A stretch of 64,000 bases of DNA from a virus: IMG/VR virus record IMGVR_UViG_3300035670_000030, positions 1 through 64,000 of that record; one strand, 5' to 3'. This document shows, in pieces, positions 30,507 to 32,636 of the stretch. Below the pieces are notes generated by a model. It was not told the DNA's origin and did no database searches. It saw only the letters and a program-made list of their open reading frames with translations. Positions within the stretch are counted from its first letter, which is position 1. The number at the start of each line of letters is the position of its first letter. The position numbers and the translations under genes were made by a program.

Positions 30507-30597
30507 TACTGGGTGCTGGAATCGAACCAGCGCTCGGCCCTCATCTAGGGCACCACGGGTATAAGCCGTGCGGTGCTTCCAGTTACACTAACCCAGT
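30507..30597 (-). tRNA. Class II tRNA with anticodon TAT (nominally Ile)
   Basis: 91 nt. Acceptor ACTGGGT with ACCCAGT and discriminator A; D arm GTGT with GCAC; anticodon arm CACGG-CTTATAC-CCGTG (anticodon TAT, reads AUA); T arm GCTGG-TTCGATT-CCAGC. A 22-nt variable region with a perfect GCCCT/AGGGC stem makes this class II, which is normal only for Leu, Ser and Tyr tRNAs. Amino-acid identity is therefore uncertain. Confidence 0.8.
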
Positions 30598-31308: not shown

Positions 31309-31661
31309 TGGTGTTTTTATCGCACTTTGGACCAGATCAGAGTTGCGCCTCTGCTGGCATTGTCTAACAACCTGTTAGACTCAGAACACCTAACCATTTA
31401 ACAGCGGTTTTAGCCCATCTAGCTTTGGATAACCCAGAACCCACGCTCTTCTTTTTTGACTATCAACTATAGTAGTCTTATTCACTGTGGAACTCTATAT
31501 GTCTAGCCAGAACACGGACACGTATCCGTTATATAGAGAGGTAGAGTTGCATACCTTAATTAAAGGCGATCCCGATTTTAATGGTTGTACATCGCCACAC
31601 CACCATTTATTAGCATCTCTGCTCCTATCGAGCGGTTTGCTAATAAAATTTTTCAAAGAAC
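31309..31661 (-). ncRNA. Structured noncoding RNA, about 350 nt, family not recognised
   Basis: No convincing reading frame, but dense helices and more G+C than the flanks. Minus-strand order: 10-bp perfect stem 31647-31638/31615-31606 capped by GCUC/GAGC; GGCGAU/AUCGCC (31596-31591/31570-31565); 8-bp 31538-31531/31500-31493 with an inner ACGGA hairpin; GACUA/UAGUC (31477-31473/31462-31458). The 3' domain is a three-way junction closed by GGUGUUC/GAAACACC-like pairing (31390-31384/31316-31310) with a 7-bp GUCUAAC hairpin (31380-31362) and a 9-bp CCAG/CAGAG hairpin (31357-31332). A TTGACA-17-TATATA promoter fixes the 5' end near 31661. The 3' end probably comes from processing at tRNA-Met. Confidence 0.72.
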
Positions 31662-32178: not shown

Positions 32179-32636
32179 GGGCGTGTACTGGTTTCGACAT
32201 TTGGTTGAAATTAAAAACGCATGTCGAGGTTAATCGATGGCCTCGTAAAAAATCGATTAAAAAATTAAAAGCAGAAGATAATACTGCCGATATCTTGGCT
32301 GAAGCCGAGTATATCTTTAACAATGCTTCCGAGTTCCTCGGTGGTGTTGAAGAAGAGTATCTCTTAGCAGCCTAAGGTCTTTATAACCAGATCCTCTAAG
32401 GTTATATCGATAAACAGAGGATGTCAGATTGTTGGTAGTTCTGATGTAATAATAAAATATCAACCGTTTATAGATTGCGATAATGTCTATAGGCAGACTG
32501 TAAACTCGGTTAGTATCACCAAGCAGCCTAAAGTCTTCGCTACCGTATGGTAGCTGAAATGCTAAAGACACTTAAACATGTAGACTTTTTAACGTAAATT
32601 AAATGGACAGGAGTTCAACTCTCCTCACGTCCACCA
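32179..32636 (+). ncRNA. ssrA: tmRNA (transfer-messenger RNA), 458 nt
   Basis: Acceptor GGGCGUG pairs with CACGUCC (7 bp including G-U), followed by encoded ACCA. The 5' domain reads UACUGGUUUCGAC, as in E. coli tmRNA. The GAGG ... GGCCUCGUAAAAA element forms pseudoknot 1, with a perfect 9-bp UUAAUCGAU/AUCGAUUAA partner helix. The 3' part has AACAUGUAGA and T arm AGGAG-UUCAACU-CUCCU. One-piece form. It rescues stalled ribosomes and tags nascent peptides, with the host SmpB. It is about 95 nt longer than E. coli tmRNA, mostly because of the tag region. No SmpB is seen in this window. Confidence 0.96.
32271..32375 (+). other. tmRNA tag reading frame, 34 codons
   Basis: The resume codon is GCA at 32271, 10 nt after the pseudoknot 1 helix, the same place as in E. 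coli (11 nt). The tag begins AEDNTADILAEAEYIF, continues NNASEFLGGV and ends EEEYLLAA, then TAA (32373-32375). The hydrophobic L-L-A-A end is a ClpXP-type degradation signal. Most bacterial tags are 8-15 codons, and few exceed 30. Confidence 0.8.

Follow-up and report, generated by a model that had tools for sequence, protein, structure and literature searches.

The window, by which we mean the whole stretch of 64,000 nucleotides analysed here, is the first 64 kb of an IMG/VR record of 143,730 bases; its GC content is 31.4% and it carries 11 tRNAs, with no tRNA found by ARAGORN in the remaining 80 kb of the same record. At 30507-30597 on the minus strand, ARAGORN called a tRNA-Ile(tat) of 91 nt, and on this interval and strand the Rfam tRNA model RF00005 scored 44.9 bits, well above its gathering score of 29. 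The length, the TAT anticodon, the 5-bp anticodon stem and the 22-nt variable region are all as an earlier sequence-only reading had described them, and its view of the gene as a genuine class II tRNA bearing an isoleucine anticodon was upheld by both tools and by covariation far beyond chance. The intact sequence folds as a cloverleaf (-35.6 kcal/mol, z -2.10), and the family model R1 gave it 90.9 bits, the window copy being among the 40 sequences from which that model was built.

All parts of the gene lie on the minus strand. The discriminator is A at 30507, and CCA is unencoded in the window copy. The acceptor stem joins a 5' strand ACUGGGU (30591-30597), all seven pairs of which vary on both sides across the family, to a 3' strand ACCCAGU (30508-30514); this strand and the T arm GCUGG-UUCGAUU-CCAGC (30515-30531) were placed by the Rfam model and family covariation. 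The D arm, GUGU-AACUGGAA-GCAC, occupies 30573-30588, and three of its four pairs do not vary across the family alignment. Nucleotides 26/26a (CG, 30571-30572) form a junction helix with 30535-30536 of the 3' variable-arm linker, as judged from pairing and covariation in the family. The decoding anticodon arm (30554-30570) has a covarying 5-bp stem, CACGG/CCGUG, and the loop CUUAUAC, within which ARAGORN placed the anticodon UAU at 30561-30563. The variable-arm hairpin GCCC-UAGAUGA-GGGC (30537-30551), our proposed GAU surrogate anticodon arm, covaries at all four stem pairs, carries GAU at positions 3-5 of its 7-nt loop (30543-30545), where an anticodon would stand, and is followed by a 5-nt 3' linker CGAGC (30532-30536) that corresponds to the variable loop of class I tRNAs. 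The variable helix had originally been drawn as GCCCT/AGGGC with a 5-nt loop; comparison across the family favours a 4-bp stem and a 7-nt loop (GCCC/TAGATGA/GGGC).

Two further RNA features were observed nearby. The stretch at 31310-31391 (minus strand), adjoining a tRNA-Met gene, is tRNA-like, starting with GGTGTT and ending with AACACC, and no tool calls it a tRNA. A tmRNA missed by ARAGORN lies at 32179-32636 on the plus strand (Rfam RF00023, 133.8 bits); its reading frame from 32271 would encode an unusually long tag of 34 residues, AEDNTADILAEAEYIFNNASEFLGGVEEEYLLAA. Stenotrophomonas phage DLP6 likewise has a tmRNA call, in that case from ARAGORN.

The tRNA belongs to a family of class II tRNA(UAU) genes. 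Starting from the DNA polymerase III alpha gene of the phage, we reached 40 related viral loci; four related records carry an orthologous class II TAT tRNA, at 92% or 76-78% identity. A search with a variable-arm pattern returned 33 viral contigs and a wider pattern search at least 120, and after a structural scan the family stood at 86 or more distinct sequences from IMG/VR viral contigs. Three carriers are cultured: DLP6, whose copy is annotated as tRNA-Ile-TAT, and Synechococcus phages S-CRM01 and S-SRM01, whose copies are unannotated in the records used. Since UAU was set by the search pattern in the wider set, its conservation there is no evidence, and it is the search with an anticodon-free body pattern that counts. 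This pattern matched 40 stretches, of which 36 tRNAs and the window copy all have TTATA, so the anticodon is fixed in this tRNA body; the four other stretches were chance matches with no tRNA there. With the anticodon fixed in 37/37, a recently mutated Leu tRNA was rejected as an origin. The discriminator in the family is A in 80 members, T in eight and C in one (n = 89), CCA is encoded in many copies, and the genes frequently sit among other tRNA genes.

Two exact patterns gave no match in GTDB genome contigs, and these patterns cover the window's subfamily only, so that absence from bacteria does not follow. A BLASTN search of phages with the window tRNA, an exact pattern of its anticodon arm and a plasmid search likewise returned no match. 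BLAST of other family members mostly matched the T arm of unrelated phage tRNAs, and a 17-nt variable-arm match in Vibrio phages was rejected as chance, there being no tRNA at those sites. The family has so far been found only in viral sequences, and in the open-licence literature we found no account of a phage class II tRNA(UAU) family or of any dual-anticodon tRNA. It is a new viral tRNA family, previously undescribed in that literature and marked by a distinctive junction helix. Other viral contigs (L261-L309) hold class I tRNA(UAU) genes, an alternative viral solution for AUA.

Comparison of 40 diverse members establishes the structure at the level of sequence. Paired bases fill 97.0% of pair cells, versus 62.7% after shuffling and 37-42% with partners slid, and the covariation score is 0.835 versus 0.179 shuffled. 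Covariation extends to all six helices, the junction helix included; compensated change is free in the acceptor, anticodon and variable stems and in three of five T-stem pairs, and the D stem is nearly fixed. In the junction helix, nucleotides 26/26a pair with the first two nucleotides 3' of the variable stem, an arrangement unseen in Leu, Ser and Tyr class II tRNAs. Both junction positions are paired in all 61 members with a two-nucleotide linker, through five pair combinations (CG:CG, GA:UU, AG:CU, GG:UC and AA:UU), and the junction is paired in only 18 of the 24 members with a one-nucleotide linker.

The variable loop is as distinctive as the junction. It is 7 nt long with the consensus YAGAUNR, and GAU stands at positions 3-5 in 88/90 class II Ile-UAU tRNAs. 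Among class II Leu, Ser and Tyr tRNAs from these loci the figure is 1/148, and a choice of the best 7-nt hairpin made blind to sequence still gives 85/89 for the family. The 3' linker is 5 nt in 70/90 members, compared with mostly 1 nt in Leu, mostly 1 nt in Ser and mostly 3 nt in Tyr tRNAs, so that the family departs from the short linker and mostly 3-6 nt loop of those classes. Two phage tRNA-Ile(GAT) genes have CTGATTA as their anticodon loop, and the variable loop of four family members has exactly this sequence. At the U33-equivalent of the GAU loop, however, 82/89 members have A, and position 37 is U or G, not A; this lack of U33 and A37 is an argument against full anticodon mimicry.

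The family does not coincide with any tRNA kind to which we compared it. Canonical bacterial tRNA-Ile is class I with a variable loop of 4-5 nt, whereas the window copy has a 22-nt variable region. The tRNA-Ile2(CAU) with lysidine, of which one is vibriophage-encoded (PMC13191261), likewise gives AUA as isoleucine, but it is class I, has CAU in the gene and needs modification by the host TilS, and the window gene has TAT. Class I tRNA-Ile(UAU) of Mycoplasma, Bifidobacterium and lactobacilli reads as isoleucine without lysidine (PMC8450103; references in PMC9976931); those tRNAs are cellular and have a short variable loop, whereas the phage family is viral and class II. The nematode nev-tRNA-Ile(UAU) (PMC4033280, PMC4300185) shares the long variable arm and the UAU anticodon. 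That tRNA is eukaryotic, has class II-like recognition elements in its variable arm and is leucylated in vitro, whereas the phage family has a GAU variable loop, a different junction and AUA as isoleucine, and its variable arm differs from the Leu arms of the same loci, unlike the Leu-type arm of nev-tRNA. Bacterial allo-tRNAs of the 8/4 type (PMC7609411) are also non-canonical class II tRNAs known from metagenomes, often with UAU; they have an 8-bp acceptor stem, a 4-bp T stem and SerRS-type features, and this identity is ruled out by the 7-bp acceptor and 5-bp T stems of the A73-bearing phage tRNAs, pairing that is supported across the family. The window tRNA also has A73, not the G73 of class II tRNA-Ser.

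The rule that long arms mark Leu, Ser and bacterial Tyr tRNAs, on which the sequence-only reading had relied, holds only in part in phages, where class I is common among Leu tRNAs and some of the Gln, Lys and Thr tRNAs belong to class II. Against the textbook rule, class I tRNA-Leu with a short variable loop was common in viral loci (for example L077:1095-1170, L117, L210 and L216), making up about half of Leu-TAA and most of Leu-CAA in the loci examined. Class II tRNAs also turned up sporadically with other anticodons, namely Gln(TTG), Lys(TTT), Thr(TGT), Met(CAT), Trp and Asn; their variable loops are small and ordinary, and some of these calls may be parsing artefacts.

AUA is frequent in the window, as the sequence-only reading had stated, with 904 codons (23.7 per 1000). 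To assign its meaning we took protein homologues sharing at most 85% identity from related viral loci, left the AUA codons of those homologues out of account, and compared 202 AUA columns of the window phage with amino-acid profiles. Isoleucine was the best profile in 2000/2000 bootstraps, and the same procedure assigned 59/59 control codons correctly. The AUA columns (I.417, L.138, V.133) resemble the AUU/AUC columns (I.425, L.131, V.171) and not the leucine profile (L.602), and an earlier tally by identity band agrees. Because the AUA columns match the isoleucine profile, AUA is read as isoleucine in the phage proteome, with the genetic code unchanged, and the gene behaves as a tRNA-Ile in the functional sense that its codon is translated as isoleucine. 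Low-level ambiguity at AUA may occur.

The earlier suggestion that AUA is read as Leu or Ser, or recoded, thus did not survive the alignment test that had been proposed for it, and recoding of AUA to Leu/Ser was rejected on the column profiles. Charging with Leu, Ser or Tyr, and insertion of that residue at AUA fully or ambiguously as with the nematode nev-tRNA-Ile(UAU), is in our view improbable. The long variable arm would fit it, A73 would suit Leu or Tyr, the next best window matches of the family model are two Leu tRNAs (53.2 and 44.4 bits), and the nematode tRNA is leucylated in vitro (PMC4300185); yet isoleucine exceeds leucine by 124 log units at AUA columns (95% interval 97-151), the variable-arm geometry is unlike that of Leu, Ser and Tyr tRNAs, and G73 predominates among Ser tRNAs of the same data set. 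Isoleucine and leucine are equal in mass and inseparable by plain mass spectrometry (PMC4300185).

That the RNA is a decoy or regulator and no translation tRNA seems to us extremely unlikely. It is the sole tRNA detected in two large contigs (157 and 91 kb), and AUA is rare near the gene in some carriers, for example DLP6, S-CRM01 and S-SRM01, both of which would suit such a role; the constrained anticodon loop, the predominance of A73, the CCA encoded in many copies, the covarying cloverleaf and the frequent siting among other tRNA genes all argue for a working tRNA.

The organization of the variable arm points to a second fold within the same molecule. When the UAU arm and its linker were removed in silico, for analysis only, ARAGORN called the remainder tRNA-Ile(gat) in 81/89 sequences. 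The same removal on class II controls gave calls in 0/63 Leu, 4/54 Ser (none of them Ile) and 0/30 Tyr tRNAs, that is, 0/147 Ile calls; control loops were mostly shorter than 7 nt, so this control shows that ordinary variable arms are no anticodon-arm mimic and does not cover random 7-nt loops. Once its UAU arm is taken away, the window sequence adopts a class I cloverleaf at z -3.87, versus -2.10 when intact. In members with a two-nucleotide linker, the variable stem together with 26/26a is as long as a canonical anticodon stem with the 26:44 pair added, and is fully paired in 53/61. By sequence and predicted folding, one tRNA holds two nested cloverleaves. In the first, the UAU arm serves as anticodon arm, with the GAU hairpin as variable arm; in the second, the GAU hairpin stands where a class I tRNA-Ile(GAU) has its anticodon arm, 26/26a pair with the nucleotides that follow the hairpin, a variable loop of 5 nt comes next, and the UAU arm is inserted near nucleotide 27. 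The family resembles class I tRNA-Ile(GAU) in this body and differs from it in the inserted arm and in a GAU loop mostly without U33 and A37.

The nested fold might be taken to mean that decoding falls to the GAU hairpin, which would read AUU/AUC, and that the UAU hairpin is an accessory or intron-like insertion. The tRNA-Ile(gat) calls and good folding of the arm-less sequences would fit, but we regard this as very improbable, given that the UAU arm has U33, A37, a covarying stem and a 7-nt loop, that TTATA is present in 37/37 body relatives from the anticodon-free search, and that U33 and A37 are mostly missing from the GAU loop.

We therefore lean, with modest confidence, towards an isoleucine tRNA that reads AUA, is charged by IleRS through the GAU arm and is used by the ribosome through the UAU arm. 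The stricter formulation, one tRNA with two anticodon arms and divided tasks, GAU for loading by the synthetase and UAU for decoding, is offered more tentatively, as a serious possibility. We arrived at GAU mimicry only once the variable loop had been seen. We infer that the gene is transcribed and its product isoleucylated: host IleRS, an anticodon reader, would recognise the GAU arm and load isoleucine, and the ribosome would then read AUA through the UAU arm. U34 is poorly handled by E. coli-type IleRS, and UAU is accepted by the Mycoplasma mobile enzyme. Showing GAU to IleRS would circumvent the synthetase's dislike of U34, and the phage would gain an AUA-reading tRNA without the need for lysidine at C34. 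The strong isoleucine determinants are the discriminator and the anticodon, with modified L34 required in tRNA-Ile2 and t6A37 a strong determinant for bacterial-type IleRS (PMC9976931); E. coli IleRS does not isoleucylate tRNA-Ile2 with unmodified C34 (PMC11938285).

Charging should fall to the host, since no class Ia synthetase match was found in 25 of the 26 phages tested, the window phage included; pieces were present in one contig, and a phage-encoded class Ia synthetase was set aside as the charging partner. A 208-kb carrier of the family's class II tRNA (record G039, L225-L227) has class Ia synthetase matches in three places, two of them neighbouring and possibly one split gene.

Several observations count against charging through GAU. 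The variable loop lacks equivalents of U33 and A37 while t6A37 matters for bacterial-type IleRS, the minor E. coli isoleucine determinants C4-G69 and C29-G41 are unconserved in the family, AUA is scarce around the gene in carriers such as DLP6, S-CRM01 and S-SRM01, and the junction is incompletely paired among single-nucleotide-linker members. A possible, though rather unlikely, alternative is that host IleRS charges this AUA isoleucine tRNA via UAU itself together with A73, and that the variable arm and its GAU loop serve another purpose, for instance making the tRNA more stable, evading host defences that cut tRNAs or preventing AUG misreading. Besides the missing U33/A37 equivalents, this would be consistent with AUA as isoleucine, with A73 in 80/89, with A37 throughout the UAU arms of the family (partly set by the search pattern), and with UAU tRNAs standing in for tRNA-Ile2 in some bacteria (PMC8450103). 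The class I tRNA(UAU) genes in viral contigs also imply that the extra arm is not the sole route and that some hosts can use UAU without it. Direct charging through UAU would, however, leave unexplained why 88/90 members carry GAU precisely where a 7-nt loop would hold its anticodon, and why the remainder forms a class I tRNA-Ile(GAU) cloverleaf in 81/89.

Whether or not the mechanism holds, public phage genomes contain a widespread tRNA family, hitherto undescribed and with a distinctive junction helix. If charging through GAU and decoding through UAU is true, this would be a natural tRNA whose amino acid identity and decoding are taken from two different anticodons, a separation sought by genetic-code engineers, for example as a scaffold for codon reassignment. 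It would also explain how phages of several bacterial groups decode AUA without the host's essential lysidine step, through a phage-made bypass of both lysidine and the synthetase's dislike of U34.
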